From IMG/VR virus record IMGVR_UViG_3300030102_001226, positions 1-20,225 of that record: a DNA stretch of 20,225 nucleotides. The stretch is one strand, 5' to 3'. Made by a program: the position numbers and the translations under genes. Positions within the stretch are counted from its first letter, which is position 1. Every line of letters begins with the position of its first letter. This DNA comes from a virus. Below, one piece after another: positions 6,549 through 20,225 of the stretch. The notes beneath the pieces were generated by a model. The model was not told where the DNA came from. It made no database searches and saw only the letters and a program-made list of their open reading frames with translations.

Positions 6549-6943
6549 TACTTTGTAATCCCCTTTACCTTCTCTACGGTCCTGAGACCGCCAAGCCCCA
6601 ACATGCCCAACAATACAGTCATTAAAGAGTCCATATCAAAAGTTGGCAATTCTGGTATCTCTATCCCCGCGTATGAACATATGAACATTGTGACAGGAGC
6701 GAGAACAAAATGCCATGCCATGGCGAAAGAAAGGCACCAACCAAGGAATGGACGCCATCCAGCAACAAATATGGACCTATGTTGCGCCTCTGCTTTGTTG
6801 ATCTCTATCTGACCCATATTGGCTTCGTGCATCTGCTTTTCGGCCATGGTCGCGATTTCGTGTGCCAGCTTCGCTTTCTGGTCCTTGTCCTCTATGAACT
6901 TGTCCAAAAGGCCCGTAACCGGCCCGATCAACGCCTGCAACAT
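6548..6943 (-). CDS. Holin of the three-TM, GTA type
   Basis: This 131-residue protein matches what I know of the 'holin of 3TMs' family (Pfam PF11351) found in gene transfer agents and alphaproteobacterial phages. Residues 1-55 are a soluble helix rich in Lys and Glu (LDKFIEDKDQKAKLAHEIAT). Residues 59-69 contain the family signature VAGWRPFLGW. Membrane segments follow at about 66-92 (broad, hydrophobic, with Pro83) and 105-121 (SLMTVLLGMLGLGGLRTV), with a short basic tail. It would form lesions in the inner membrane to release the lysozyme at 5422-5877. The start is fixed by an AGGAGG site 7 bp upstream, and translation follows an 80-bp non-coding leader, unlike any neighbour. Confidence 0.9.
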   Translation of the reverse strand: MLQALIGPVTGLLDKFIEDKDQKAKLAHEIATMAEKQMHEANMGQIEINKAEAQHRSIFVAGWRPFLGWCLSFAMAWHFVLAPVTMFICSYAGIEIPELPTFDMDSLMTVLLGMLGLGGLRTVEKVKGITK

Positions 6944-7360: not shown

Positions 7361-7591
7361 CTATGGTACGATTTTTACCGTCCCATTGTCGTTAAAAAGA
7401 GAGCCAGTTTCCAAGCCGGTTGCGCTTGTTGGCAGATTGGTCAGCGTAATTTTTGTACCTCGCAACTCTCCGGGATTTCTTTCCTGTTGAATAAAAATTT
7501 CAAGCGCACGAAGTAAATCCTGCATATAGCGTTGAGAGTATTCTGCTGGCGGCTCCGGCAGTCTGGGCGGTGCTATCTGATTAGATGACAT
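7361..7591 (-). CDS. Small conserved phage structural protein (76 aa)
   Basis: This 76-residue protein overlaps the stop of the tail hub gene as TAATG. It begins with a Pro-rich leader (MSSNQIAPPRLPEPP), then a helix SQRYMQDLLRALEIFIQQE (residues 19-37), then a short strand region GTKITLTNLPTSATGLETG and FNDNGTVKIV. Proteins of this size with the ALEIF helix and a TNLPTS-type turn followed by GSLFND occur next to tail genes in marine phages and are often annotated only as structural. Coupling to the hub gene suggests a tail or neck component. No enzymatic motif is present. Confidence 0.75.
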   Translation of the reverse strand: MSSNQIAPPRLPEPPAEYSQRYMQDLLRALEIFIQQERNPGELRGTKITLTNLPTSATGLETGSLFNDNGTVKIVP

Positions 7592-9468
7592 TAGCGCCTA
7601 CCATCCTGCTGCATGTCCACTCGCGGGCTTCCCAGCTTCCATTTAGATCCCAAAGCATCTGACTCTATACGCATAGCAAAAGATCTGCCCCTAGTTCTTG
7701 TGTGCAACTGATTTGTAAATAGCTCCACGGGTGATGACTGCGTCCTTACTGCTGTGCCAGATGCCGTGTTGTCAAAACTACTGCCGGGGAAGTTCCTAGA
7801 CTTCAATGTAAATGTAGCTTGAGGCGTGCTGAGATTTGTTGACCCAGTAAACGTCAGATCGGGTATCACCCTTTTGATGTATGTAAATCTGTCGCCATCA
7901 CCGATGTCCATAACGCCGGATTCGATAAACGAGTTCATAGAAGATCCGTCGTCGTCATATCCAAGCTCATGATTGTATAAATAAGAAGAGCTTGCAGCTA
8001 TTGGGTATGTGCGAACACCACGATCAATCCACGCTGTGCGAGACAATGACCCGAAGTACCAAATTTTTTCACCGTAATTATAGATTACATACTTATCGTT
8101 ATCTGTGCTGCTTGAGGATGGGTAAAACCAAAAAACCTCAGAGAACTCAGAGTTAACCCCAGACACAACTTTGTCAGCTTGCTCTAGATTAAAATCAAGA
8201 AACACCTTGTCCTTGACAGTGCATGGGAGTTGTTCCGTTTGACCGGCATACACATAGAAATTGTCAATTCCCATCCAATACACAACATCCTCTGTAGCCG
8301 CTGCCGCATTCGGACCCATGATTGTAATATTAGAGGCAAGCTGTTGCAGTCCAAATGTAAATGGAGGGCCTATAAATCTCATGGAATTGAGAGCGGTGTC
8401 TGTCCACACAAGTATCTCGCGCTTTGTTTCTACGGCCTGAATAAAGCGAGAGCCAGAGCCAAGCCTTAGATCACCGGCTGTGTTTGTGCTTGTCGGGAAC
8501 CAATCTATTGGATTTTCTTGCGACGAAAACCTAATTAACAGTGGGTCTTGTATGCCATCCCCCTGATTTGCGCTTGAACTAGCGCCAAGGCCATCACACC
8601 CAAATGCGATAACATGTCTGTCTTGATCTGAAACCAAAACCTGTTTGGCGACTTGGGGGACGCTAGTTTTTGTGCCAGATATAGTCGATAGCTCTACGGC
8701 CCTCGTAGACAGGTTGTTTGTTCTGTCCCAATAATAAATGTTTGAATCACGAGGATTGATAATTAAATCCTCGCCGAAATTATCGTGTGACCAAAGCCGG
8801 ATTTGATTTGTGGTTGTGAGGCCGCCAGAAGCCGCATCGCCCCAGCCGTCTCTGCCCCAAGTGCCTGCGCCCCATCCTGTGCCGCCCACAGAAGTGTCCA
8901 GACCGACGTTGATCTGATATGCACCAACCGTGCTGCCGCCACCGTTGCCTGAGTCAGATGAATTAGCGGTAGCGCCCACGACGATTGTATATGTGTTTGC
9001 GTCAGTCACACTTACAACTTGATGTTCCGCGTTCAACACAGCCGCTGTAATGTTGCCGCCAAGAGATGCCGCGCCAGAAAAGGTGACGAAGTCATTTTCA
9101 AACGCGCCATGCGAGGCGTCAGTCACTGTTATAGTGGTGCTGCCGTTTGAAGCGGCGAAAGTTACATCACCGGCACCCGTCGTCAGGCGAATGGGCGTGA
9201 TGTCATTCATCCCGCCGCCCTCTTCGATGTAGTATTTTAGATGTGTCCCAATGCCCAGATAGTTAGAACCGTCAAGTGCAATCCAGTTATGCAACGCACG
9301 GGCGGAACCAAGATAGGTATTCGCGGTGTACTTTTCCCAACCGCCCAACTTTTCTGGATACCCAAAACGAAAGCGAATCTTGTCGCAGTCACGCCAACCA
9401 CCTTCGTTGGAGTACGAGGTGATTTCTTGGTTTACACCGGGTTTAAATTGTAACTTCATTAGGGGCAT
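7591..9468 (-). CDS. Tail hub / packaged-DNA stabilisation protein (P22 gp10-like)
   Basis: This 625-residue virion protein should close the portal channel and connect it to the tail. The start at 9468 is 4 bp after the previous stop; an in-frame ATG at codon 4 has a poorer site. Residues 7-46 carry the N-terminal motif FKPGVNQEITSYSNEGGW and IRFRFGYPEKLGGW. Residues 95-180 are an inserted beta-rich module (ITVTDASHGA; VTDANTYTI). From residue 220 on there is a blade-like pattern as in P22 gp10: LRLGSGSRFIQAVETKREIL, then a phrase about the initial state, ATEDVVYWMGIDNFYVYAG, and a closing RGRSFAMRIE followed by GSPRVDMQQDGRR. The similarity to gp10 is in layout and short motifs, not high identity. 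Clear alternative: a generic stopper/adaptor protein. Confidence 0.8.
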   Translation of the reverse strand: MPLMKLQFKPGVNQEITSYSNEGGWRDCDKIRFRFGYPEKLGGWEKYTANTYLGSARALHNWIALDGSNYLGIGTHLKYYIEEGGGMNDITPIRLTTGAGDVTFAASNGSTTITVTDASHGAFENDFVTFSGAASLGGNITAAVLNAEHQVVSVTDANTYTIVVGATANSSDSGNGGGSTVGAYQINVGLDTSVGGTGWGAGTWGRDGWGDAASGGLTTTNQIRLWSHDNFGEDLIINPRDSNIYYWDRTNNLSTRAVELSTISGTKTSVPQVAKQVLVSDQDRHVIAFGCDGLGASSSANQGDGIQDPLLIRFSSQENPIDWFPTSTNTAGDLRLGSGSRFIQAVETKREILVWTDTALNSMRFIGPPFTFGLQQLASNITIMGPNAAAATEDVVYWMGIDNFYVYAGQTEQLPCTVKDKVFLDFNLEQADKVVSGVNSEFSEVFWFYPSSSSTDNDKYVIYNYGEKIWYFGSLSRTAWIDRGVRTYPIAASSSYLYNHELGYDDDGSSMNSFIESGVMDIGDGDRFTYIKRVIPDLTFTGSTNLSTPQATFTLKSRNFPGSSFDNTASGTAVRTQSSPVELFTNQLHTRTRGRSFAMRIESDALGSKWKLGSPRVDMQQDGRR

Positions 9469-9472
9469 GTGA

Positions 9473-10915
9473 TTAGCCTACAGGAGTGCCGGGTGCGTTA
9501 AAAATGTTAAAGTTTGCAGCGTTACCAGAGCCAATCGACGTAGGCACGTTGGTGTTACAGTTGCCACTAGAGGTATCAAAGTACACGGCCCATGAAGGAT
9601 TGGTAGATGTTGAGGTCGTATTTACATCTCGCGTGGCTCCCGCAGCCATAACTGCCGCACCGCCTGTGGTGCTGCTGCCTAGCGTGTAAGACTTGCTGCC
9701 ACTACTGTTGGTAAACCGCGTTGTGTACTGTGCGGATCGTCTCGTGCTAAATATACCTCCGCCTTCTTCCCCACTGTTGGATAAGAGGTTAATCACCGCG
9801 CCAGCAGAAAGTGAACCGTTGTTGGTCCCACCTCCCGACGCCCCGTTTGCAGCCGGGCCGGTGTAATAACTTATGTTGACAGCAGCACCATTCCCCGAGA
9901 TATCGACGCCTGTCTGCGATATAGTGCTGCCGCCATTGACGTTGTGGGTGATAGTCACATAGCCGGTGCCGCCGTTAGCATCAAAAGTGTCACCGATTAT
10001 TTGTATAACCGCATCATCGGCTGTCACAGTGTATGCTTTTGGCAACACCGGGTTAGCCCCGGTCTGTCTGGCGGTGTTGCTGCCCAAAGCACCTGTGTAA
10101 TTTGGCCCAATAATTGTGACGTTGATGTCGCCAGCGGACCCCGCCCCTGCTCCGGTCACGTTGTCATACGCAAGAACCCAAGAATTGGAAGAGCCGCTGC
10201 TGGTGACGGTCTGACTCTCGCCCGGACTGTAAACTGTTTCTGATCCGGTTGAACCAGAGGTAAGAGTGTAGGTGTCACCAGTGGTGGTGTTGTTTGCAAA
10301 AACGACGTTATAGGCAGAAATTGAGCCTGAAGTCCCGCCATTAGTGTTGGCCGTGTACTGAATAGATGGCGAACCAGACCAAGCCCAGCTTTGTGATCGG
10401 TTGATCGTGCCACCACCACCGATTCCAGCAGAACATGTCCACACCAAAACATCGCCCGGAGCGCAGGATACAGACCAACTACCACCGCTGTTACCAAGGC
10501 TGACTACACCTGTACCATTCTTTGTTACAGTCAGCGCCTTGCCATCACAGTTACCAGAAAGCGTGGTCGAAGCGTTGAGGACACGCGCTGTCCATGTGCC
10601 TGTGCCAGAGCCAGCATTCTCACGGATTACGTTCCAGTTGCCGTTAGACTGCCCTCCAGAAAACCCTGAGTTGCCTTGCGTAATCGTTGTACTGAAGCTG
10701 GTGTAGCCGGTTGCAATGGTGCTTACCGTCACTCCAAAGTCGTCTACCGTCTGGCTGCTTGTGCCGGTGGTTGCAGTAGCAGAGCCAGCAAAAGAAGACG
10801 GCACGAGAGACCCGCCACGGTTGTATTCCGACAGGCTGGTAGGGGCGCTGCCGCCATAGAAGGCTTGTATTTCTCCGAGGGAGATTGCGTTTCCTGAACC
10901 GCCGTTAACAGCCAT
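9473..10915 (-). CDS. Gly/Ser/Thr-rich fibre protein with phage ISLGEI / SLSEY head
   Basis: This 480-residue protein starts with the widespread phage motif ISLGEIQAFYGG and SLSEYNRGG (residues 11-35), seen at the start of many marine phage tail or fibre proteins and thought to be an attachment head. The rest is beta-rich with abundant Gly, Ser, Thr and Asn and almost no Lys or hydrophobic core helices. Two tandemly related segments stand out: about 200-273 (TYTLTSGSTGSETVYSPGE, SWVLAYD) and about 397-477 (SYTLGSSTTGGAAVMAAGA, SWAVYFD). Cysteines at 123, 151, 161 and 453 are noteworthy in a fibre. A strong AGGAGG site lies 5 bp before the ATG. It is followed directly by the hub gene, so a tail-tip or fibre role is likely. 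Confidence 0.75.
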   Translation of the reverse strand: MAVNGGSGNAISLGEIQAFYGGSAPTSLSEYNRGGSLVPSSFAGSATATTGTSSQTVDDFGVTVSTIATGYTSFSTTITQGNSGFSGGQSNGNWNVIRENAGSGTGTWTARVLNASTTLSGNCDGKALTVTKNGTGVVSLGNSGGSWSVSCAPGDVLVWTCSAGIGGGGTINRSQSWAWSGSPSIQYTANTNGGTSGSISAYNVVFANNTTTGDTYTLTSGSTGSETVYSPGESQTVTSSGSSNSWVLAYDNVTGAGAGSAGDINVTIIGPNYTGALGSNTARQTGANPVLPKAYTVTADDAVIQIIGDTFDANGGTGYVTITHNVNGGSTISQTGVDISGNGAAVNISYYTGPAANGASGGGTNNGSLSAGAVINLLSNSGEEGGGIFSTRRSAQYTTRFTNSSGSKSYTLGSSTTGGAAVMAAGATRDVNTTSTSTNPSWAVYFDTSSGNCNTNVPTSIGSGNAANFNIFNAPGTPVG

Positions 10916-10920
10916 CTGTG

Positions 10921-10926
10921 CCTCCT
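10921..10926 (-). promoter_or_regulatory. Strong Shine-Dalgarno site of the 480-residue fibre gene
   Basis: AGGAGG on the minus strand, 5 bases before the ATG at 10915. It sets the start, and is one of the few strong ribosome sites in the array. Confidence 0.85.
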
Positions 10927-10927
10927 G

Positions 10928-11689
10928 TTAAATGGTGCCAAACGCAGTTACATCGCCCGTGACTTTAAGATTACCGCCAGTATCAAGCTCCATCTTGGCA
11001 GTGCCAGAATAACTGATGATTAACTTGTTGGAGGATACGGTAAACGTCCAATCGTTGGACGAATTGTCCAGAGTAAACTGACCACCCTGCACTGTGCCGG
11101 TGCTGGTGATGTTGTTTGCACCAGTGCTTACAGCGCCAGAAGCAGTGATAGCTCCTGATGAAATAGCCCCAGTGATTGTGAGGCTGCCGGTGGTGTTGAT
11201 GTCTCCGGTGCCTGTAATGTCATTAGAATTAAGATCTAAGTTCCCGCCCAACTGAGGGGATGTATCTCCTACAACATCTGATGGAAGCTGACGCACCTGT
11301 GCGCCAGCACCTGCACCATCGGCGTAGATCCAAGCTGCCGCTCCCGCTGCAATAGTGATGTTGCCGCCGGAGCCTTGTGTAAAGATCACGCTCTGGCTAG
11401 TGGTGTTATTAACAAGATACAGCTTGTCCTGATCATTCGGGCTGATCGTAACGGTATTTGTGCCAGACGGAGAACCCGCGAGGATGAGAACTTTGTAGTG
11501 GCCGTCGGACAGGGAGCCATCACTGGTGGACAGCGTGTGCGTTGTGCCAGACAGCGTAATCGTACCAACGCCATTCAGGACGCGGTCGATAATATCAAAG
11601 TTCGTGTTTGTGGTCGTGCCCCAAGTACCTGACTGTTCGCCAGAACCGGGCTTTTCTATCCCACTATTTGCTGTGTAAGTAGATGCCAT
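10928..11689 (-). CDS. Phage tail fibre protein with beta-repeat shaft
   Basis: This 253-residue protein begins MASTYTANSGIEKPGSGEQS, then GTWGTTTNTNFDIID, a common marine-phage fibre head. Residues 45-135 form a beta domain (VTISPNDQDKLYLVNNTTSQ) seen in many marine-phage fibres. Residues 145-205 contain the shaft GGNLDLNSNDITGTGDINTT then alternating ITG/ASG repeats. The C terminus (207-253) is a small beta cap. The GGNLDLNS block recurs in the 313-residue protein at 12762-13703. The start lies immediately after the TAA of the preceding gene. Role: fibre or fibre-base protein. Which part of the virion it joins cannot be seen. Confidence 0.8.
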   Translation of the reverse strand: MASTYTANSGIEKPGSGEQSGTWGTTTNTNFDIIDRVLNGVGTITLSGTTHTLSTSDGSLSDGHYKVLILAGSPSGTNTVTISPNDQDKLYLVNNTTSQSVIFTQGSGGNITIAAGAAAWIYADGAGAGAQVRQLPSDVVGDTSPQLGGNLDLNSNDITGTGDINTTGSLTITGAISSGAITASGAVSTGANNITSTGTVQGGQFTLDNSSNDWTFTVSSNKLIISYSGTAKMELDTGGNLKVTGDVTAFGTI

Positions 11690-12406
11690 TTACTTCACCA
11701 TTTCTGTCCATGTCTCAACTGTACCACTTGTTGACACTTCTGACCATGTGTCTCCCGTGTGTGTTATTTCTGACCAAGACTCCTGATTTGTACCCGCGTC
11801 TAAATTCTCCCATAGCAACGCGCCAAGAGTTGATTGATCGAAGCTGAAGACGATATCTGCATCGCCGGACAAGATAGCGATGGGTGCTGTGGTTTGCAGG
11901 AACGTGCTGTCTACAGACAAAGCCGTTTCACGCACACGATTAGCCAGCGTGGTTTGTATTGTATCGCCGATCTGTGTGGATAGACCTTTAGCGATTAAGT
12001 TTCCTGTGCTGGTTTGCGTGAAGTTGCCAGACTGCTCGGACACACCAGATGCCGTAAAGTTCTGTGTCGTTGTCTGCGTAAAGTTAGCCGACTGCTCCGA
12101 TACGCCAGATGCTACCAACAGCGCCGTCGAAGTCTGGTCAAACTGTGCGATCATGTCAGCGTCAGTCTGACGTATGCGGTTAGCAGCAGAAGACTGCAAA
12201 AAGTTGGCATCCATAGTTAGGATGCCAGCCGCCGTGCCAGCCGCAAATGCAGAGAACTCCGAGTTGCCGATGATGTCGAGAGATGCCGGTGAGATAAAGT
12301 TCTGTTCTGTTGTCTGCGTGAAGTTTGCGCTCACGGATTCAGTGCCGAACAACAGGATACCCTGATCAGCTATCGCTCTTTCTGATATGCCGTGAACGCC
12401 GAACAT
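11690..12406 (-). CDS. 20-residue-repeat protein, probable fibre or shaft
   Basis: This 238-residue protein overlaps the preceding stop as TAATG. It starts MFGVHGISERAIADQ, a start seen in phage tail-associated proteins. From residue 28 to about 196 it is built of strict 20-residue units with the pattern N-F-T-Q-T-T: Gln is at residues 31, 71, 91, 111, 131, 151, 171 and 191, with the unit at 48-67 degenerate. The two central units, both with ASGVSEQS and NFTQT, are nearly identical. The C terminus repeats a short Trp motif three times: SWSEI, TWSEV, TWTEM (residues 210-236). A regular spacing like this suggests a solenoid or triple-stranded fibrous shaft. No enzymatic motif. Function is inferred from the fibre neighbourhood. 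Confidence 0.75.
   Translation of the reverse strand: MFGVHGISERAIADQGILLFGTESVSANFTQTTEQNFISPASLDIIGNSEFSAFAAGTAAGILTMDANFLQSSAANRIRQTDADMIAQFDQTSTALLVASGVSEQSANFTQTTTQNFTASGVSEQSGNFTQTSTGNLIAKGLSTQIGDTIQTTLANRVRETALSVDSTFLQTTAPIAILSGDADIVFSFDQSTLGALLWENLDAGTNQESWSEITHTGDTWSEVSTSGTVETWTEMVK
11881..12180. repeat. 60-bp tandem repeat array
   Basis: DNA units of 60 bp follow one another in register; for example 12001-12060 and 12061-12120 share ACTGCTC, CCAGATG and TCTGCGT/TTTGCGT blocks at the same offsets. The repeat encodes the 20-residue units of the gene at 11690-12406, and weaker copies extend to about 11830 and 12340. Period conservation at DNA level with much base divergence suggests an old expansion. 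Confidence 0.75.
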
Positions 12407-12759
12407 TAGGGCTTACTCGGCCATACAACATCATCTAATGATGTGTAGGTATTTGTGATATCGCGCAGTGCTTGACGGTAGGGAAACCATGCATCTTTAA
12501 TCGACTGTGGCACATCTTCACCAGAGACCCAGTCAGACTCTTTTAGTTTTTTGTCCCTTTCATGCCGCAAGGCTTTCATGGGCATTTCGGCTTCAAGTTT
12601 TAACTTCTCCGCCTCAATCTCCTCTTCTGTAGGCACTGGCTCTGTGTTCACTTTATCCCACTGGATAGAGCCATCCTCAAAAAGTGTGTATTGAGAATTG
12701 GGGCGTAGCCGCTTTAGGGTTAACACTCTCTTATGAAAATTTTCAACTCGGTTAGACAT
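12406..12759 (-). CDS. Tail-assembly-chaperone-like protein, copy 2
   Basis: This 117-residue protein starts MSNRVENFHKRV; an in-frame ATG four codons upstream lies inside the preceding gene, so 12759 is chosen, 2 bp after its stop. Residues 9-36 have strand-forming sequence (NSQYTLFEDGS). A Glu/Lys-rich helix follows (EEEIEAEKLKLEAEMPMKAL, residues 45-64), then RHERDKKLKESDW. The C terminus holds YRQALRDITNTYTSLDD and VVWPSKP. That ending is the hallmark of Phage_tail_APC (PF16778)-type tail/fibre assembly chaperones. The same ending is in the gene at 13707-14096. It probably assists folding or attachment of a neighbouring fibre, most likely one of those on either side. Confidence 0.85.
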   Translation of the reverse strand: MSNRVENFHKRVLTLKRLRPNSQYTLFEDGSIQWDKVNTEPVPTEEEIEAEKLKLEAEMPMKALRHERDKKLKESDWVSGEDVPQSIKDAWFPYRQALRDITNTYTSLDDVVWPSKP

Positions 12760-12761
12760 TG

Positions 12762-13703
12762 TTAATCCCAAGCTATCTCTTGTATTACGAGTGTAGATTT
12801 AGCTGTCGTGTTGTTATACGAACTTGCAGTGTCACGCGACTGACCAATGTTAAGGCTAAATCCGTTTATGTTTTCTGCGGAACAGATAACCCTTATCCTA
12901 ACCTCTGATGTAGTGTTTGGATGCCAAATAACTGAAGTACCCGCGCCAACCTGCTGGTCTGGTTCGCTAATAGCGCGCACAATACTAAAATCACCCATAG
13001 CCATACCGCTGTTGTACTGACCATTTAAGTTGGTATTTCTGGTCCAACTGCCCGAGCCTATTTTGTATTCAAGCCATGCATGTGCGTCGTCGCCAGCGGC
13101 ACCATACACGTTAGAAATGACCAACATACGACTATTACTTCGTGTCGGCGTAAGTGCTGCTTCTAAGGCAGTAAACCCTGATTGAGAGGTCGTTTGAGTG
13201 ATGGCGTCAGTGGTATCAAAGGCAGTTTGCACTACAGCGCCTTTAGAGACACTGGTGAGTACCCGCCCCCAGTCGTGCCAACCGGAAGTACCCTGCTTAA
13301 CGCGGTAATGCATACCGCCAGCGCCGGGGCTGTTAGTGTCCCCAAAATACAACTGTGCCGCGCGTTCATCTGTGGCGTTGTCGGCTCCACCGTCCAAAAA
13401 CCTAGTGGACAAATACATGTAAACGCCGTTATTTGAAAAGCCGCCATTGTTGCTCGTTGCGCCGCCCCCTGCATAATATCCAAAAGCATTTGGCGTGGTG
13501 CTATTCCAGTCGCCCGTCGTAGATAACTCGGTTCCTTTTGCTAAAGGCACAACATTACGGCCATCGGCAGAAAGATTTCCAGTGATGGTCGCGTTACCTG
13601 TAGTGTTTATATTGCCCGTGCCGGTAATGTCCTGAGAGTTCAAATCAAGATTACCACCCAATGTCGGAGTGGTATAATTGGCTATGTCTCTTGCTCTACT
13701 CAT
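12762..13703 (-). CDS. Modular tail fibre, 313 aa
   Basis: Residues 1-45 are an anchor with GGNLDLNSQDITGTGNINTT, shared with the gene at 10928-11689. Residues 46-60 are a linker. Residues 63-150 form a typical receptor-binding-like module with GYYAGGG, GGMHYRVKQGTSGWHDWG: the aromatic W-H-D-W-G end is common in phage fibre C-terminal segments. Residues 155-313 form a jelly-roll-like head, SRMLVISNVYG, SVIWHPNTTSEVRIRVIC, ending QEIAWD. The ...EIA tail is shared with the genes at 14650-15147 and 14096-14653. It is bracketed by two paralogous chaperone-like genes, 3 bp after one and 2 bp before the other. Receptor binding is inferred. Confidence 0.8.
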   Translation of the reverse strand: MSRARDIANYTTPTLGGNLDLNSQDITGTGNINTTGNATITGNLSADGRNVVPLAKGTELSTTGDWNSTTPNAFGYYAGGGATSNNGGFSNNGVYMYLSTRFLDGGADNATDERAAQLYFGDTNSPGAGGMHYRVKQGTSGWHDWGRVLTSVSKGAVVQTAFDTTDAITQTTSQSGFTALEAALTPTRSNSRMLVISNVYGAAGDDAHAWLEYKIGSGSWTRNTNLNGQYNSGMAMGDFSIVRAISEPDQQVGAGTSVIWHPNTTSEVRIRVICSAENINGFSLNIGQSRDTASSYNNTTAKSTLVIQEIAWD

Positions 13704-13706
13704 CGC

Positions 13707-14096
13707 TTACTCCGGCTTCACAGGCCACACCACATCATCAAGACTGCTGTAGCTTTTGGTTATGTCACGCAGCGCCTGACGGTAGTCCCACTGCGCCTGT
13801 GACATGGTTAGATCCGCTAAGGCCCACCAATCTGTCTCGGCAATACGGCGATTCCGCTCTTCGCGCAACAGCTTCATAGGCTCGGCAGCATCAAGCTCGG
13901 CCTTCTTCGCAGATACCGTGGTCCACGATACACCCCAGTTGTCGGGGTTGTCAGACTCAATAGCGGTGCCATTGTCGTCCGCGCCGATGATCCGGCGGAA
14001 CATGGCATTGAACTCGTCCTCTGTGGTCGGGTCACCGCGCATCACCCACTGTTCGTCAGGGATGAGGGCTGTGATTGCGTCTGCTACTGTTGCCAT
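13707..14096 (-). CDS. Tail-assembly-chaperone-like protein, copy 1
   Basis: This 129-residue protein starts MATVADAITALIPDEQW at 14096, where ATG overlaps the preceding stop as TAATG; a longer frame from 14114 lies inside the previous gene. Residues 1-24 are followed by DPTTEDEFNAMFRRI (25-39), a negative spacer, then WGVSWTTVSAKKAELDAAEP (56-75) and a basic helix MKLLREERNRRIAETDWW. The end is YRQALRDITKSYSSLDD then VVWPVKPE, matching the Phage_tail_APC (PF16778)-type ending. It is paralogous to the gene at 12406-12759 in the C-terminal half, but its N-terminal half differs, so each may serve a different client. The adjacent fibres are the obvious candidates. Confidence 0.85.
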   Translation of the reverse strand: MATVADAITALIPDEQWVMRGDPTTEDEFNAMFRRIIGADDNGTAIESDNPDNWGVSWTTVSAKKAELDAAEPMKLLREERNRRIAETDWWALADLTMSQAQWDYRQALRDITKSYSSLDDVVWPVKPE

Positions 14097-14653
14097 TACT
14101 GTGCAATCTCCCAAACTGTCAGGGTTGTGGTGCCGTCGTGCTGAAACTTAACAACCTTGGTGGCGTTGTATGCTGCTATTTCACACTTCAACGTCATTTG
14201 AGTGGTTTGACCCGCAGTAAAAGAAAATTGACTAGACCACATACCATAAATGTCTGTATCGGAATCGCCCCCCGTAAATACAAATCCCACGGCGTTTCTG
14301 TTGCCTCCGTTAGTTATGAGATTTGTATTATCCTTGGTGAAGAATATATCCGCCCCACCACCAGCGGAGCCGTCAATGTAGAATTGACCAGCCCACTGCA
14401 TGAGTATTTTTGAGTCGCTAAATTTAGGCGTAATATTCACAGTGTTGACTTCGTAAGCATTGCTTAATCCACTAGAACTTACCGTAACCGCCGCAAGGTC
14501 GGCCCCGGACGTTGAGTTGCCCATTGTCTGAGTATGCACCTGACACTGAACTACAGAACCGGGAGAATGCACCTCACCAGACGAATTAATCGTCAACGCA
14601 GTGTTCCCGTTAGTCGGGTCTTGGATTTCGGAGACCTTCAGTATGCTGCTCAT
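14096..14653 (-). CDS. Receptor-head fibre protein, ...EIAQ type, 185 aa
   Basis: This 185-residue protein starts MSSILKVSEIQDPTNGNTAL (1-20), an anchor with an I-x-V-x-x-I and a TINSSGEVHSPG segment as in the other array members. Residues 34-182 form a beta-rich head: VVQCQVHTQT, SKILMQWAGQFYIDG, ADIFFTKDNTNLI, MWSSQFSFTAGQTTQMTLKC, and the end TTLTVWEIAQ. The last stretch matches the ends of the 165-residue neighbour (VVMEIAQ) and the 313-residue fibre. The start overlaps the upstream stop as ATGA, and the stop overlaps the chaperone start as TAATG. A receptor-binding head is inferred from domain layout and location. Confidence 0.8.
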   Translation of the reverse strand: MSSILKVSEIQDPTNGNTALTINSSGEVHSPGSVVQCQVHTQTMGNSTSGADLAAVTVSSSGLSNAYEVNTVNITPKFSDSKILMQWAGQFYIDGSAGGGADIFFTKDNTNLITNGGNRNAVGFVFTGGDSDTDIYGMWSSQFSFTAGQTTQMTLKCEIAAYNATKVVKFQHDGTTTLTVWEIAQ

Positions 14654-15147
14654 TGGGCAATCTCCATAACAACCATTCGAGTGTACGAGGGTGCGCTACC
14701 TGTTGTCCTTCCGAAGTAATGCGTATCGCCCCCTACCGTAGCAACTACCTGTATGACGTAAGTGTATGTCCCGACAGACTTTGCACCGCTAATATACAAG
14801 ACCGGGCTTACCTGCGAGAACTCCATTGATGTATGTGGGCCGGGGTGTTCATATCCAGCAACAATCCCGTCGCCCCCAGATTCATTCAGCCGTATGTAGT
14901 GACTGTTAGTCCAAGCGTTTCCATTTGGGTTATTGGAATAATTTGGAACGCAACCCTGAACCATGATTATGGAGTTTGCGTATTTTGTTGTAATCGCACA
15001 GGACAAGAGGTCTGTGTACGCAGAGGTGCTACTTACAGCGACCTGTGATGAGTTAGTAGCATGAACCACCTGAACAATATGCCCCGGAATCTGGATGCCG
15101 TTGCCGCTGGTCTTCTCGTTGATGGTGTCTACGAATAGTGTACTCAT
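14650..15147 (-). CDS. Receptor-head fibre protein, ...EIAQ type, 165 aa
   Basis: This 165-residue protein begins MSTLFVDTINEKTSGNGIQI, a short anchor with the F-V-D-T-I motif of the array, then PGHIVQVVHATN. The head has a cysteine-containing strand (LLSCAITTKYANSIIMVQG) and charged loops (HYIRLNESGGDGIVAGYEHP), with a conserved end, SYTRMVVMEIAQ. Same head class as the 185-residue and 313-residue neighbours, judged by the terminal EIA and the order of strands. It is 3 bp from the preceding gene and overlaps the next as ATGA. Probably a receptor-binding or fibre-tip protein; the receptor cannot be predicted. Confidence 0.78.
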   Translation of the reverse strand: MSTLFVDTINEKTSGNGIQIPGHIVQVVHATNSSQVAVSSTSAYTDLLSCAITTKYANSIIMVQGCVPNYSNNPNGNAWTNSHYIRLNESGGDGIVAGYEHPGPHTSMEFSQVSPVLYISGAKSVGTYTYVIQVVATVGGDTHYFGRTTGSAPSYTRMVVMEIAQ

Positions 15148-15150
15148 GTC

Positions 15151-15648
15151 TTAACCCATCAAGCATCCCTGAAATTTTATCCACTTGTTGCCATCTGAAA
15201 ACAACGCCTGACCAGAGTGGATACGAACTGTGTCATTCGCATCTAACTGAACCAGTCCGGCATCTGATGCCAAAGGCGCGTAAGCGTCAGCGTTGTTTGC
15301 GCTTGCTGGACGAATAGACACCATCCCCTTACCGACATCTGAACTGTTGTTAATTTGAAGGAACACGTCGAAACCGCCCGTTGATGCCTTGCCGATGGAA
15401 GCAAACTTAAAGAAATAAATTCCATCGACCGGGGCGGTGAACACCCCCGTATTAGCATTGAAATGCCCGCCGATGTCAAAATCCTCGGTAAATCCGTCCA
15501 CTACTCCCGAAGCACTCATGCTAGATGTGCGGTATGCGGAAAACGCCGGACGCGCCGGTGTTGTCACACGCCCTGTAGAGTCTACAGCCAGCGCATCTGT
15601 GGTACTACCCGTCGCCCTAATCTTGTCTACATTCAGAATCGAAGCCAT
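15151..15648 (-). CDS. C1q-like head protein, 165 aa
   Basis: The start carries the array anchor MASILNVDKIRATGSTTDAL, then VDSTGRVTTPARPAFSAY (24-41). From residue 39 it follows the C1q/TNF-like order: AFSAYRTSS, DIGGHFNANTGVFTAPVDGI, YFFKFASIG, then a terminal KFQGCLMG. The FNANTGVFTAPVDGIYFF segment is the usual C1q signature. It has a GAGG ribosome site. C1q-like domains form compact trimers on fibre tips, so a receptor-binding role is likely. Its partners in the same class are at 19073-19594 and 17994-19070, and probably the partial gene at the right edge. Confidence 0.85.
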   Translation of the reverse strand: MASILNVDKIRATGSTTDALAVDSTGRVTTPARPAFSAYRTSSMSASGVVDGFTEDFDIGGHFNANTGVFTAPVDGIYFFKFASIGKASTGGFDVFLQINNSSDVGKGMVSIRPASANNADAYAPLASDAGLVQLDANDTVRIHSGQALFSDGNKWIKFQGCLMG

Positions 15649-15655
15649 ACGCGCC

Positions 15656-16390
15656 TCACAAGATTGTCAGACTGCCACCGCTGGCAATCGTTATTGTTAC
15701 GCCATCAGCAATCGTAAGTGGCCCGATGCCAAGGGCATTCTTCGTGGCGGCAATGGTCGTGTTCTCGCTGACCGTCTTGCCGTTGGTGCGGAACACCGCC
15801 GTGTCCACCGTGGTGTTTGTAGTCTGAAACTGCGGTGCCGTAATCTCACCAACAAACGTGCCGCCGGATGCCTTCGATACTGTATCAGTAACCGTGAACG
15901 CGCGAAACGCCCGGATCACCAACTCATCATTAGTCGCGGCCCCACTACCGAGTGTGATTGTATCGCCGTTGCTTGTTGTGAAGTCTGAACTGTCCAGATG
16001 CACCCCGTTAAGGTAAACATCAACATCGTTACCACTAAAAGCCAGTATCGCACCATTTGCATCCGCCCCCGTAAATGCCGTCTGGTTGTTCGTAGCCACA
16101 TACTTGAATAGCTGCATAGCGTAGCTGGTCGGCTGATCTACAGCGCGACCAAAGAAACGCACAGTGATTACGTCGCCATTTGCAGGGGCGGCAGAAAATG
16201 TCAGTGTATTGCCCTGCGCCGTATATGCCTTTCCGATTCCCGGCTCTTGCACGACGTTACCAATCGTTACAAGCATCGCCTCGCCGGACACGACGCTCTG
16301 CGCCAGCGTAAACGCTGTATCGTTTCCGTTCCCAGTAAATCTCTGGAAGGTGATGTCACCTAGATTTGGGTCTACGCCGATATAGGCCAT
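15656..16390 (-). CDS. Fibre protein with two tandem phage beta-modules, 244 aa
   Basis: This 244-residue protein starts in a TAATG overlap. Residues 1-88 are the anchor module: MAYIGVDPNLGDITF, FTGNGNDTAFTLAQSV, VVQEPGIGKAYTAQGNTLTF, SAAPANGDVITVRFFGRAV. Residues 90-172 are a second, related module: QLFKYVATNNQTAFTGADAN, VDVYLNGVHLDSSDF, ITLGSGAATNDELVI. The C terminus (208-244) is the common phage ending with NALGIGPLTIADGVTITI. The first module recurs in the 358-residue gene at 17994-19070. It looks like a fibre-base/adaptor protein, with short shaft pieces but no obvious receptor head, so it might act as the connector for other array members. That last role is inference. Confidence 0.8.
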   Translation of the reverse strand: MAYIGVDPNLGDITFQRFTGNGNDTAFTLAQSVVSGEAMLVTIGNVVQEPGIGKAYTAQGNTLTFSAAPANGDVITVRFFGRAVDQPTSYAMQLFKYVATNNQTAFTGADANGAILAFSGNDVDVYLNGVHLDSSDFTTSNGDTITLGSGAATNDELVIRAFRAFTVTDTVSKASGGTFVGEITAPQFQTTNTTVDTAVFRTNGKTVSENTTIAATKNALGIGPLTIADGVTITIASGGSLTIL

Positions 16391-16617
16391 TAGTCTGCTT
16401 CCGCTTCTTGAATGGTAATGTCACCGTCTGAAAGCATGGCAGCAATGTCCATGTAGTCAGAGTTTTCCTCGTCGATTGGCACACTCAACATGTCTCCGTT
16501 GGCAAAAGTCACAGTGACACCAATATTAGTGGGGGAGTCTTGCTTATCAGTGTAATACTGATAGCTGGCCCCATCCCAGCGAGACGGCATAGTGATGTAA
16601 GCGATTTCGTCAGTCAT
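16390..16617 (-). CDS. Small acidic phage protein, 75 aa
   Basis: The start MTDEIAYITMPSRWDG at 16617 is preceded by AGAGG, 5 bp upstream, at the end of the previous gene; a longer frame from 16650 would lie inside that gene. The protein is acidic. Residues 33-49 (GVTVTFANGDMLSVPIDEE) and the end, MDIAAMLSDGDITIQEAEAD, resemble small phage proteins with a VPxDxxNxDY...I...W...GN pattern found near tail fibres. It sits between the carbohydrate-binding-type fibre and the 244-residue fibre and is coupled to the latter. Probably a fibre-associated or assembly protein; no firm function. Confidence 0.75.
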   Translation of the reverse strand: MTDEIAYITMPSRWDGASYQYYTDKQDSPTNIGVTVTFANGDMLSVPIDEENSDYMDIAAMLSDGDITIQEAEAD

Positions 16618-16625
16618 GCTTGCCT

Positions 16626-17729
16626 CTAATAATCTGCGTCTGCTGCCCACTGAACAAAGTTCAATCTGCCGTCACCGTTGCCCGTGCCGCCCCCGGTGAT
16701 GCATGTGTTGGAATCCTCATTGATGCCCATCGTATGTGCGCCACCACCGTTATAATCTTGGAATTGTCCAGAAGTTCCATTCTGCGGGTTCCACCATGAC
16801 ATGGTTGGCGTTGCCCGCATGGTGGTTGGAAAGTGAATGTTTGTTTGTTCACCGTTAGAACCATTAGAGTTGATCCAGCCATGTGCGCCAGACCGCGTGG
16901 CCGTTCCGATTGATGTACCGTATTCATAAGACTTACAGAAAAACGTCTGACACCTCGTCAATGTTTCAGTGAAACTCATCTGCTCAAATGCTGTTGGGTC
17001 TGTGTGGTTCAGATCAACCGCTTCAACCTGTGCGCCAGATACCCGTATGCCGCCATTTTGCGCGGTACCTTCAGAGAAGATTTGAGGAATAATGGTTTGA
17101 GTAGTTGTCGGAATCGGGCCAAGTGTGATTGAAAACCGCTGCCACGATGTCGTCAGTTGTGAACCAGTGTGCGCTATATGAAAAGCAGAGTTAGAGTTTG
17201 CGCCCTGTGTGGTCGTGTCTATGGCCCGACCATCAAAGAAAAAGCTCTTAGCGTAAAACCCATCTTCAGTTGAGCCGTTAGCGTTGTTTGCCCAACTGTT
17301 ATAGTTGGCCTGCCTAAACAAGCCAAAGCTAAGGCTTAACTTATGCGCTGCGTCAGTTGTGCCAACAGCCTTGGCGTAGACAGAAAATGTGATGTATTTA
17401 CCACGCAATGCCATCGCTTGGTCGAACTCTAAGTTCTGCTGCGTGGACATCGAGCCATTGGAACTGCCTGACTTCAGCATTTCCAGAGACCATCTTAACG
17501 ATATTGGCGCGTCTTGTTGCCGGGTATAGTTGCCTACGCAGTCATTGTAGTTGGTGCGCCAACGGTCATGCGGACCTTTGCCGCTGTGATTGCTGGATGA
17601 AAAGTATCTTTGCCAGACATGGAACTCGCCGTTGTCGAGAAGGTTTTTTCTTCCCATAGAAAAAGGCGCGTCAAGGTCTGTGACACGAATGCTGTCAATA
17701 GCGGCTGTTTTGATTTTACTCAGTGGCAT
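16626..17729 (-). CDS. Fibre protein with carbohydrate-binding-type domain, 367 aa
   Basis: Starts MPLSKIKTAAIDSIRVTDLD, overlapping the preceding gene by 14 bp. Residues 26-42 contain GRKNLLDNGEFHVWQRY, the common phage pattern RKNLxxNGxxxxWQR, and the next segment has PHDRWRTN. Residues 60-240 are a beta-sandwich of carbohydrate-binding-module type (YITFSVYAKAVGT; WQRFSITLGPIPTTTQTIIP). A short AQVEAVDLN ... FEQMSFTETLTRCQTFFCKS segment follows, as in the usual AQLExG...PFEHRSYxxELxxCQRYY phage pattern. The C terminus is Gly/Asn/Trp-rich. Probable binding to host surface polysaccharide. The glycan is unknown and catalytic residues are not evident. Confidence 0.82.
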   Translation of the reverse strand: MPLSKIKTAAIDSIRVTDLDAPFSMGRKNLLDNGEFHVWQRYFSSSNHSGKGPHDRWRTNYNDCVGNYTRQQDAPISLRWSLEMLKSGSSNGSMSTQQNLEFDQAMALRGKYITFSVYAKAVGTTDAAHKLSLSFGLFRQANYNSWANNANGSTEDGFYAKSFFFDGRAIDTTTQGANSNSAFHIAHTGSQLTTSWQRFSITLGPIPTTTQTIIPQIFSEGTAQNGGIRVSGAQVEAVDLNHTDPTAFEQMSFTETLTRCQTFFCKSYEYGTSIGTATRSGAHGWINSNGSNGEQTNIHFPTTMRATPTMSWWNPQNGTSGQFQDYNGGGAHTMGINEDSNTCITGGGTGNGDGRLNFVQWAADADY

Positions 17730-17976
17730 CCGCGTTCACCTGTGCAGCAGTCCGCACAACGCCCAAGTCATATGCTTGAGTCACCTGTGCGTCCTCGCCG
17801 ACAGCCAGTGCAACATCGTTAGCGTTGCAGTGAGCTACAAGCAAGGCGATGATTTCATCCTTGGCGATACGAGCGCGGTTCGTAAGCGCATTATCCGCCC
17901 AATCCTGTACCGAAACTGTGGCATATTCTAACGCCTTATTCTCGGTGTCTGTAAGAGTTACTGTAATATCCGGCAT
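17716..17976 (-). CDS. Small phage protein, 86 aa
   Basis: The start MPDITVTLTDTENKALEYAT at 17976 is chosen because AGGAG lies 7 bp upstream at 17984-17988; the longer frame from 18018 would run into the preceding gene. The protein is helical after residue 12: NKALEYATVSVQDWADNA, TNRARIAKDEIIALLVAHCN. No enzymatic motif, signal peptide or membrane segment. Small proteins with a DITVTLTDTE start and a VQDWADNALTNRA helix are frequent next to fibre or tail genes in marine phages, so I know the family by appearance but not its function. It overlaps the next gene by 14 bp. Confidence 0.8.
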   Translation of the reverse strand: MPDITVTLTDTENKALEYATVSVQDWADNALTNRARIAKDEIIALLVAHCNANDVALAVGEDAQVTQAYDLGVVRTAAQVNADATE

Positions 17977-17983
17977 TAGATTT

Positions 17984-17988
17984 CTCCT
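17984..17988 (-). promoter_or_regulatory. Shine-Dalgarno site that fixes the start of the 86-residue gene
   Basis: AGGAG on the minus strand, 7 bases before the ATG at 17976. It supports the short start over the in-frame ATG at 18018. Confidence 0.8.
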
Positions 17989-17993
17989 GTAAA

Positions 17994-19070
17994 TTAGCCG
18001 ATGAGGAAACCGGACCACCGGGTGTACTGATTGTTGCCGTGAATAACTTCGCTTTTCTGACCTTGGACAAAAACGTAATCATTTGCGTCCAAGCGGAAAG
18101 TGTCACTCAGAAAGTCGCTATAGTAGCCAGAGTCACCTGTAGTGTTTGAAACATAAAATGCACGTCTTTCACTATAGCTTCTGACGCTTCCGTTTACGTT
18201 GAACCGTAGGCTATCCTGCATTCCTACTCCACTGGAGACGCCCTGCCAGAGGACAATCGCATGGAAGAAATAGACGCCACTAACCGGCGCGGTGAACCTG
18301 TAGTTACCAGACGTTGCTAGATGGTTGCCCTGATTGAAAAACTCACCACTGGCTCCAACGTCATTGAACTGGACGGCATTGCCTGAACCGTGGGTGTAGC
18401 CGCCATTCAAACCGGCTCTGAACGCTGGCTGAGTAGGCATCGTAATTCTGCCGTTACTGTCGATGGTTAGTGGCGTAAGAAATCCACTCGCCCTATCATC
18501 ATTGCAGGTTAAAATGTTGAACGCGCCACCGCTAACCTGTAAACCCCAGAACTGGTCGTTTGCGGTTGCATCAGTATCCTGCAACATGACTTGTGTGTTG
18601 CCGGTAGATTTGAAGACAGAGGCATTTGCGTGGGTTGATGTGGTTACATCTAATGCCTCACTTGAGGTGAGGCCATCAACAGTGGTTGTGCCATCAACAT
18701 CTAAGTTTCCGCTAAAAGTGCCGTTCGTCGCAGAAACCGCGCCGCTAAACGTACCCGTCGTCGCCGCCAGAGCAGCATTAGCGTCATGCTCAAGGCGTGG
18801 GTTGATAGTCGCCTCACCACGGTAGATGACATACACGTTGTTGGTGCCAGACGGCGGTGCCTCGTCAAACGTCAGTGTCGTGCCGGATGCGGTGTAGGAC
18901 TTGCCTGCTCCCGGTTCCTGTTGAACATTCTCGACAAACACCTCTAGGTCTTCGCCTACATTGACGGACCTGTTCAGCGTAAACGCAGTGGTCGAGCCGT
19001 TGCCGCTGAAGCTCTGGCTCGTCGCTTGATTTACTATCGCTGTATTTGGTGGCTTGCCGATATATGCCAT
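17994..19070 (-). CDS. Chimeric fibre: MAYIG anchor, shaft and C1q-like head, 358 aa
   Basis: Residues 1-88 are the same anchor module as in the 244-residue protein: MAYIGKPPNT, FSGNGSTTAFTLNRSV, VQQEPGAGKSYTASGTTLTF. Residues 88-140 are a repeat-rich shaft (GTFSGAVSATNGTFSGNLDV). Residues 160-215 include VMLQDTDATANDQFWGLQVS and the array-type linker LTIDSNGRITMPTQPAFRAG (201-220). Residues 216-358 are a C1q-like head: VQFNDVGAS, YRFTAPVSGVYFFHAIVLWQ, YVFVQGQKS, ending WSGFLIG. It follows the 173-residue C1q gene by 2 bp. It joins two fibre classes in one chain and so should be a complete fibre with anchor, shaft and tip. Receptor is not predictable. Confidence 0.85.
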   Translation of the reverse strand: MAYIGKPPNTAIVNQATSQSFSGNGSTTAFTLNRSVNVGEDLEVFVENVQQEPGAGKSYTASGTTLTFDEAPPSGTNNVYVIYRGEATINPRLEHDANAALAATTGTFSGAVSATNGTFSGNLDVDGTTTVDGLTSSEALDVTTSTHANASVFKSTGNTQVMLQDTDATANDQFWGLQVSGGAFNILTCNDDRASGFLTPLTIDSNGRITMPTQPAFRAGLNGGYTHGSGNAVQFNDVGASGEFFNQGNHLATSGNYRFTAPVSGVYFFHAIVLWQGVSSGVGMQDSLRFNVNGSVRSYSERRAFYVSNTTGDSGYYSDFLSDTFRLDANDYVFVQGQKSEVIHGNNQYTRWSGFLIG

Positions 19071-19072
19071 GT

Positions 19073-19594
19073 TTAACCTACCAAAAATCCGCTAAAGCGG
19101 GTGCCTTGCCGCACTTGTGTAGTCGTATCGTCATTTGCTGAGAAATACGGCGTAACTGTCTGCGAAGCTGTAAGTTGAATTAAGTGCGAAGCTGTGTTGC
19201 TCTGATAAGCTCCACCTTGCGGGTCTTGAATGGTGCGGTAAGTCAAATCGGAATCCGAACCAACTTGTGCGCCATCAATGTAAAAGTATGTGTTGACGAT
19301 ATTAGCAGCGGTGCAATTCCCTAAAAGCAAAGAGAGATTAAATTGATAGATACCTGCAATCGGTGCTGTGAACACAGCATTACTAGACATTGTGACATTG
19401 TTACCGATATCGAAATCTTCTGCATCGAACGGAATTACACCTACAGAGGTATTGTCTGCGGTAGCTGCATTGGAGCTTAGGTAGACACTAAAAGCTGGCC
19501 GTGCAGGTGTCAGGATGCGACCACTGCTATCAATCGTCAGGCCCGTGGTCCCGCCGTTGTTCTGGATGGTGTCTACCTTGATGATTCCGGTCAT
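19073..19594 (-). CDS. C1q-like head protein, 173 aa
   Basis: Residues 1-38 are the array anchor MTGIIKVDTIQNNGGTTGLT, IDSSGRILTPARPAFSVYLS. From residue 36 the C1q-like head follows: IPFDAEDFDIGNNV, AVFTAPIAGIYQFNLSLLLG, YFYIDGAQVGSD, LIQLTASQTVTPYFSA, and the end RFSGFLVG. These are the expected C1q strand motifs with the typical FSGFL ending. It has a GAGGT ribosome site. Probably trimeric and located at a fibre tip. Compare the similar genes at 15151-15648 and 17994-19070. Confidence 0.87.
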   Translation of the reverse strand: MTGIIKVDTIQNNGGTTGLTIDSSGRILTPARPAFSVYLSSNAATADNTSVGVIPFDAEDFDIGNNVTMSSNAVFTAPIAGIYQFNLSLLLGNCTAANIVNTYFYIDGAQVGSDSDLTYRTIQDPQGGAYQSNTASHLIQLTASQTVTPYFSANDDTTTQVRQGTRFSGFLVG

Positions 19595-19598
19595 TGCG

Positions 19599-20147
19599 CT
19601 ACCTCAACCTATGGCCGCAAATATAAGTGCGAAATGTGCTGCCCGACCTGTTAACTGTTGTTGTGCCGCCACTAGAAATATCAGACTTTAAAGTAACATC
19701 CATGTAGTCTCCAGCTGTTGTCAGGTCCATAATTGCGCTGAATGAAAAAAGACCCTCGGTTTGCGACGTACCAGACCCGCCACTCGCTCTTAGTTGACCG
19801 AGGTTCGAGACAACATCTGTGCCGTTTTTGCGAATGTTGACCGTGGTGCTTTCGATGTTGTTGGTGGCATTTATGTAGATGTTCACACTGACCCACCAAT
19901 ATCCTTTGGTGTTTGCATCAACAGTAAGTCGATAGTTCGATGTGTCCCAAAGACTATCAGGGTCTGAGGCAACATCATCAAACTGAATTACTGTCGCCGT
20001 GTTGTCTGGAATGCTGCCTTGGTCAGTATCAAGGTCAACCATAAAGAACGGCAGTTTAGGCTGGGTGATGATACCGCCAGCGCCGATGGTCATCGCGTCG
20101 GTGCCATTCGTATGCTGTATTGTCTGTACGCCGATTTCGGATGCCAT
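19599..20147 (-). CDS. C1q-like or related head protein, 182 aa
   Basis: The anchor MASEIGVQTIQHTNGTDAMT is followed by IGAGGIITQPKLPFFMVDLD, as in the other array members. The head has VIQFDDVASDPDSLWDTSNY, RLTVDANTKGYWWVSVNIYI, YMDVTLKSDISSGGTTTVNR and an ending STFRTYICGHRLR. The order (target residue, D-x-x-x-L-W-D, G-Y-x-W strand) resembles C1q-like phage heads, but the typical FTAPxxGxYxF motif is replaced by VDANTKGYWWVSV, and the end differs from the FSGFLxG class. So it is a C1q-related variant with less certainty. It follows the partial gene at the right edge by 8 bp. Confidence 0.78.
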   Translation of the reverse strand: MASEIGVQTIQHTNGTDAMTIGAGGIITQPKLPFFMVDLDTDQGSIPDNTATVIQFDDVASDPDSLWDTSNYRLTVDANTKGYWWVSVNIYINATNNIESTTVNIRKNGTDVVSNLGQLRASGGSGTSQTEGLFSFSAIMDLTTAGDYMDVTLKSDISSGGTTTVNRSGSTFRTYICGHRLR

Positions 20148-20155
20148 TACTTTAC

Positions 20156-20225
20156 CTATGTCGCATGAACTAACATGCCGAAAAAGTTCGATTTTACGTT
20201 GGCGGTGTCGTGAATTACAGTATTA
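20156..20225 (-). CDS. C-terminal end of an upstream fibre-type gene (partial)
   Basis: At the right edge the minus strand has an open frame ending with TAG at 20156-20158. The visible 22 residues end in VKSNFFGMLVHAT, which resembles the last strand of C1q-like heads (FSGFLVG, WSGFLIG in this window). It is tightly spaced (8 bp) before the next start at 20147. A gene of the same array probably continues beyond the window. With only 22 residues this is an inference from the ending and the spacing. Confidence 0.6.
   Translation of the reverse strand, partial: NTVIHDTANVKSNFFGMLVHAT

Follow-up and report, generated by a model that had tools for sequence, protein, structure and literature searches.

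The 20,225-base IMG/VR fragment IMGVR_UViG_3300030102_001226, which was analysed over its whole length and is called the window below, belongs to an uncultured marine bacterial virus and carries a row of small genes (g1-g16), several of which have short N-terminal anchors and C-terminal heads resembling those of phage tail fibres. By comparing this array with related loci, we show at the sequence level that the anchors are specific for the position of a gene in the row, its slot, and are inherited with the phage backbone, whereas the heads have been replaced behind one anchor, and moved between slots, at the anchor/head join. Receptor-binding proteins limit the hosts of abundant, mostly uncultured ocean phages, and a system of fixed slots with exchangeable small heads would, if true, explain the strong differences that close marine phages display at such genes.

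Genes of the array and classes of heads

All genes discussed here are tightly packed on the minus strand, as the initial annotation had described for this row of small adjoining genes. In the order of transcription the array is followed by g17, a holin gene (6548-6943), and genes for a lysozyme-domain protein, a DNA-ejection protein and other virion proteins, a gene set that fits a short-tailed phage. The head-bearing genes, their chaperones, the headless gene g7 and the backbone gene g17 are:

20156..20224, minus strand: edge head gene, C-terminal end only, ending in NFFGMLVHAT; the complete gene of the relative L037 at this place ends in GMLVHAT
19599..20147, minus strand: g1, slot 1, anchor MASEIGVQTIQ and C1q-type head (profile E 1.3e-21; phrog_15750)
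19073..19594, minus strand: g2, slot 2, anchor MTGIIKVDTIQ and C1q head (PF00386, E 1.1e-7)
17994..19070, minus strand: g3, MAYIG fibre N-terminal domain, stem and C1q head (phrog_18673 tail fibre; PF00386)
16626..17729, minus strand: g5, fibre whose C-terminal head belongs to the phrog_4492 tail-fibre family (E 1.7e-26, residues 21-366)
15656..16390, minus strand: g7, headless, MAYIG start and two tandem beta domains; proposed branching hub
15151..15648, minus strand: g8, slot 8, anchor MASILNVDKIR and C1q head (PF00386, E 3.8e-10)
14650..15147, minus strand: g9, slot 9, anchor MSTLFVDTINE and EIA-class head with predicted TNF-like lectin fold
14096..14653, minus strand: g10, slot 10, anchor MSSILKVSEIQ and EIA-class head (C1q in most relatives)
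13707..14096, minus strand: g11, tail-fibre assembly chaperone (PF16778, E 1.2e-12)
12762..13703, minus strand: g12, different N-terminus and C-terminal EIA-class head (E 1.9e-10)
12406..12759, minus strand: g13, second tail-fibre assembly chaperone (PF16778, E 3.2e-16)
7591..9468, minus strand: g17, P22-gp10-like packaged-DNA stabilization/tail protein adjoining the array, used as backbone marker (phrog_3287, E 1.5e-66)

At least eight genes bear heads, and a truncated ninth, missed by the initial annotation, lies at the edge of the window. The heads fall into at least three classes, as had been proposed: C1q (g1, g2, g3 and g8), EIA, with a C-terminal EIA motif (g9, g10 and, by profile, the C-terminal part of g12), and phrog_4492 (g5). 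The earlier count of eleven or more genes with shared anchors is reduced to seven, of which g1, g2, g8, g9 and g10 begin with the I-x-V type and g3 and g7 with MAYIG. The same stretch also includes genes without heads, namely the chaperones g11 and g13 (47.9 and 59.4 bits for PF16778, Phage_tail_APC, at a gathering cut-off of 26.6), the headless g7, and the tiny g4 and g6; g14-g16 have none of the named anchors.

The C1q domain scores above the Pfam gathering cut-off (PF00386, 23.7 bits) in g2, g3 and g8; in g1, its recognition depends on the profile built from the array itself. PF00386 matches 29 of 31 slot relatives, and by profile the C1q heads also match human C1q, adiponectin and cerebellin. 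None of the 54 EIA-class members matches PF00386, the hhalign alignment of EIA and C1q heads is confined to the anchor, and no head matches both models. The initial annotation had made the array idea depend on a structural relationship between the heads, and despite the lack of a sequence alignment, structure prediction gives the EIA head a jelly-roll fold of the tumour necrosis factor (TNF)/C1q type. The model of the g9 head, with a predicted local distance difference test (pLDDT) score of 83, is a beta sandwich whose top structural matches are TNF-like proteins, including the Pgp3 C-terminus (Z 14.3), the PLTL lectin (13.7), the BC2L-C lectin (13.1) and C1q domains (9-10). On this model, two of the three head classes have the same type of fold although no similarity is detectable between their sequences. 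Since TNF-like lectins resemble the EIA head, the heads presumably bind surface glycans, and from their fold family they presumably form trimers.

By sequence, the EIA head is homologous to the C-terminus of orf22, a protein of the LME-1 portal-tail complex (PDB 9efk, E 5e-21) present there in 18 chains, a multiple of three, and P-SSP7 and further marine phages also possess EIA-related domains. A single-sequence search of named phages with g9 gave no match, and these relatives were reached only by the class profile; likewise, the tail-fibre family phrog_6942 matches 39 of 54 class members (best E 5.1e-18) and gives no match with g9 alone. These similarities bear on the possibility that the small heads are capsid or neck decorations, or fibres for seawater particles or glycans in general, and not tail receptors. 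C1q and TNF-like folds are also known from surface proteins that are not receptors, such as those of the spore exosporium, but the homology to the LME-1 tail-complex protein, the PHROG tail-fibre families, the tail-fibre chaperones inside the array and the adjoining stabilization/tail gene make such a role improbable.

Slot anchors and exchange of heads

Viral contigs were scanned with g17, with g7 and with g11, and the three scans together yielded 232 loci. For 154 distinct proteins from these loci we compared the first 18 residues as the anchor and residue 31 to the end as the head. In the window, the first 19 codons of the three central slots are located as follows:

15592..15648, minus strand: slot 8 anchor
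15091..15147, minus strand: slot 9 anchor
14597..14653, minus strand: slot 10 anchor

The median identity of anchors is 83% within a slot versus 17% between slots, whereas that of heads is 26% versus 22%. Anchor similarity follows the similarity of g7 (rho 0.55-0.68) more closely than head similarity does (0.14-0.45). The gene order g7-slot 8-slot 9-slot 10-chaperone is kept in 36/36, 36/36, 46/47 and 26/26 distinct pairs for the successive adjacencies, the single exception being an extra 497-base stretch that separates slot 9 from slot 10. Within this fixed frame the head classes vary by slot: slot 9 carries EIA heads in all 51 cases, slot 8 carries 32 C1q, four EIA and five other heads, slot 10 carries 45 C1q, seven EIA and two others, and both C1q and EIA heads are found in slots 1 and 2 among the relatives. 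As the EIA model had originally been seeded with slot 9, circularity was checked by rebuilding it from 13 EIA heads of other slots; the new model recovers 51/51 slot-9 heads and no C1q heads, and a C1q model from slot 10 recovers 31/32 slot-8 C1q heads and no slot-9 heads. The pattern of class by slot persists after similar heads are collapsed. Further head classes exist, since seven heads that follow standard anchors fit neither model (L113, L143, L145, L147 and L194 in slot 8; L153 and L157 in slot 10).

Closely related phages differ strongly in their heads. Among the 57 pairs with g7 at least 96% identical, the head is less than 50% identical in 48 pairs for slot 8, 48 for slot 9 and 42 for slot 10, and single slots differ while the others stay unchanged. 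In the loci L092 and L095, for example, the slot-9 head DNA is identical and slot 10 has an EIA head in one and a C1q head in the other. Heads with closely similar DNA also occur in different slots: the slot-8 head of L096 corresponds to the slot-10 head of L011 (97.8% of 418 nucleotides), that of L124 to slot 10 of L058 (95.1% of 453), and that of L058 to slot 10 of L145 (98.5% of 470), while the slot-9 head of L096 and the slot-10 head of L092 share 81.8% of 401 nucleotides. Assembly chimeras were considered as a source of these pairs: the L096/L011 arrangement recurs in several loci on both sides, and the slot-10 arrangements of L058 and L145 are represented by one locus each. The comparison of related metagenomic phages suggested by the initial annotation has thus revealed head swaps behind kept anchors, and its term combinatorial is upheld in the sense that slot-specific anchors stay fixed while the heads behind them vary independently; this variation includes switches between C1q and EIA and cross-slot moves at 95-98.5% DNA identity. 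As head exchange is visible in DNA, its rates and partners among wild phages become measurable.

Rapid divergence in place, without exchange, is an improbable source of this variety. Identity between heads of the same slot and class is as low as 20-40%, and such divergence may still account for part of the variety within a class, but it is contradicted in the listed examples by class switches within a slot and by near-identical head DNA on unrelated anchors. The variation also concerns whole heads, not scattered sites as in the variation produced by diversity-generating retroelements, and no reverse transcriptase of such an element was found among the scanned genes of the window, which represents an incomplete genome. 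Neither an inversion nor another switching element was found in the window, and a scan of it for tRNAs and long repeats detected none that would explain the array.

Over the four cross-slot pairs, DNA identity begins at nucleotides 55-78 (codons 19-26) of the gene; in the three pairs at 95.1-98.5% it begins at nucleotides 55-68 (codons 19-23) and continues through the stop codon. This onset at the conserved anchor/head join would also be expected if the anchors were mainly recombination handles, with the heads competing for one or a few virion sites and only some of them displayed at once. A DSSGRV stretch common to the joins of slots 1, 2, 8 and 10 agrees with such a role, as does the 5' identity of Ackermannviridae tailspike genes, which has been proposed and used for recombination (PMC11414711). 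However, competing heads should share one anchor, and anchors of different slots are only 17% identical; moreover, each slot has one gene in a fixed order, and a C1q head never occupies slot 9. We consider this explanation unlikely.

The genes of neighbouring slots appear to be coupled through the codons of the EIA motif. Of 47 distinct cases, 46 have a four-base overlap of slots 9 and 10, and a Shine-Dalgarno-like motif lies within 18 bases of the slot-10 start in 54 of 54. In the window, this motif falls inside the MEIAQ codons of g9:

14662..14665, minus strand: GGAG within the MEIAQ codons of g9, 8 nucleotides upstream of the g10 start; probably serves g10 as ribosome-binding site

The E codon of the motif is GAG in all slot-9 copies. 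Over all EIA heads, GAG is favoured 148:40 in genes that overlap or abut their downstream neighbour, versus 7:22 in those that do not (p 1.5e-8, and 3e-6 without slot 9; both values are optimistic because related sequences were counted). This codon bias points to an embedded ribosome-binding site for the next gene, and the C-terminal EIA motif thus appears to have a second job, in which GAG forms part of that site and couples the slots. A site embedded in the last codons of a head is an unusual constraint that ties a protein motif to gene order.

Proposed receptor-binding assembly

On balance, the array probably specifies a branched set of receptor-binding proteins with multiple heads in a short-tailed marine phage, built from slot-specific anchors and exchangeable heads. 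Each small gene would encode a two-part adhesin consisting of a slot-specific anchor of ~20 residues and a C-terminal C1q or TNF-like (EIA) head of ~130 residues. Each anchor would attach its trimer to a set position in a branched assembly, whose organizer is most likely g7 and/or the MAYIG fibres, and the chaperones g11 and g13 would assist the folding of the heads. All heads would be synthesized at the same time and carried jointly by a single virion, and single heads could be exchanged without disturbing the assembly. Such joint display, rather than the use of the heads for alternative hosts that the initial annotation had also proposed, is favoured by the presence of one gene per slot in fixed order, the four-base overlaps with embedded ribosome-binding sites, the strong class bias of slot 9 and the failure to find a switching element in the window, and we consider it the most likely arrangement on these grounds. 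If so, many genes now annotated as hypothetical could be read by a simple rule, in which the anchor gives the position and the C-terminal part the head class.

The place of g7 in this assembly is a guess from its predicted structure. The protein consists of two beta domains without a head and is 83-97% identical to the window copy in 37 aligned relatives; a PDB sequence search with it gave no significant match. In the model, residues 12-81 resemble the XD2 domain of the CBA120 tailspike TSP4 (Z 9.6, 1.6 A over 64 residues; model pLDDT 63.5), and in CBA120 the XD2 and XD3 domains of TSP4 bind the partner tailspikes (PMC8825819). Residues 5-165 span XD2-XD3 of TSP4 and the gp10 proteins of T4 and KP1 with differing domain angles, the root-mean-square deviation over XD2-XD3 being 14 A. 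The N-terminal part of g7 also resembles the N-terminal parts of portal-tail or fibre chains of LME-1, P-SCSP1u and PhiM1. A more detailed version of the branched assembly, which we put forward tentatively, is a crown of at least eight different trimeric heads, whose slot-specific address peptides of ~20 residues plug into a headless XD2/XD3-like hub and whose heads are self-contained cassettes that in their last codons also supply the next slot with its ribosome-binding site.

Several points weigh against a branched assembly with docking anchors. The array is described here from its sequence, and the loci compared are mostly metagenome assemblies related to one another, so that the tests are not fully independent. 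The model of g7 is weak (mean pLDDT 63.5, predicted template modelling score 0.36) and XD-like domains also act as plain fibre-docking domains, which is why its role as a hub is called a guess above. Instead of docking, the anchors could have a role in folding, in recognition by the chaperones or in homologous recombination. Finally, the restriction of slot 9 to EIA heads may partly result from the embedded ribosome-binding site and not from a structural slot.

Related systems and remaining genes

The closest known system is the tailspike complex of the Ackermannviridae (CBA120 TSP1-4; PMC8825819, PMC11414711, PMC8432352). There, too, a phage carries several receptor proteins with conserved N-terminal assembly parts and variable C-terminal receptor parts, one receptor part can be found on different TSP types with the join at a conserved motif, and branching domains of the XD2/XD3 type are present, which g7 resembles in its weak model. 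In contrast to the four large tailspikes of that complex, the window encodes at least eight small heads, mostly of TNF/C1q type, on ~20-residue anchors, together with separate chaperones and a headless candidate hub in a short-tailed marine phage. In LME-1 orf22, a single protein of 658 residues, an N-terminal domain that resembles the first of the two in g7 is combined with the homologue of the EIA head, whereas these parts are encoded by separate genes in the window. The gp24 fibre of Pam3 with its gp25 chaperone (PMC9608196) is similarly a small fibre with an N-terminal docking part, a TNF-like receptor part and a dedicated chaperone; it differs in being a single fibre gene with a helical docking domain and a glycine-rich tip.

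A sibling set of slots, with heads ending in GDLA (phrog_11355 tail fibre), is found in phages whose g17 is as much as 89% identical to that of the window (L004). This set was seen in L004, L007, L016, L040, L053, L057 and L240, the last being the Puniceispirillum phage HMO-2011, an isolate (GU557055) on SAR116. A sequence search of the PDB with the GDLA class gave no match, and the alignment of EIA and GDLA heads by sequence is confined to their anchors. In HMO-2011, as in the window, small tail-fibre genes with anchors of the slot type stand in a row, which comprises one head each of the C1q and EIA classes, five of the GDLA class, two MPYIG proteins and one chaperone; the C1q head stands behind an anchor type that elsewhere carries GDLA heads. 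Unlike the window, it has the sibling slot set with mostly GDLA-class heads. Its genes are annotated as putative tail fibres, and in the literature searched no description of slots or head exchange was found for it. The named phages nearest by g17 (DSL-LC04, HTVC027P and CRP-902) show no array of such form in their annotation. The initial annotation had regarded the window as having more receptor modules than a typical podovirus, which is fair in comparison with T7 or P22, but HMO-2011 possesses a similar array and in P-SSP7 five tail-fibre genes adjoin one another.

In metaviromic islands of marine phages, C1q and tail-fibre genes have been reported as hypervariable and are thought to function in host binding; in the parts of that report consulted, no slot anchors, cross-slot head transfer or embedded ribosome-binding sites are described (PMC3909814). 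The logic of the array is thus known from the Ackermannviridae, the array itself is present in HMO-2011 without such an interpretation, and the hypervariability of C1q genes was already known.

The remaining genes in and beside the array include:

17716..17976, minus strand: g4, small protein within the array, no role assigned
16390..16617, minus strand: g6, small protein, no role assigned; resembles a small HMO-2011 protein
10928..11689, minus strand: g15, tail protein with N-terminal ~130 residues conserved and C-terminus variable in relatives

Relatives of g17 carry the annotation stabilization protein, and g11 is 84-91% identical in the closest relatives. A relative of g7 with 84% identity is encoded on a contig binned in a Marinimicrobia metagenome-assembled genome (L239, PBPT01000031.1), which may be a hint at a host or a binning error; as the only match in the search of genome contigs, it is too weak for naming a host. 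In several relatives, the conservation of g16 (9473-10915) is limited to the first ~40 residues, and in some relatives unrelated genes are found at this place. The N-terminal ~130 residues of g15 are ~80% identical in relatives such as L022, L025, L035 and L040, where the C-terminus is replaced and often longer, so that g15 is also a gene with an anchor and a variable end.

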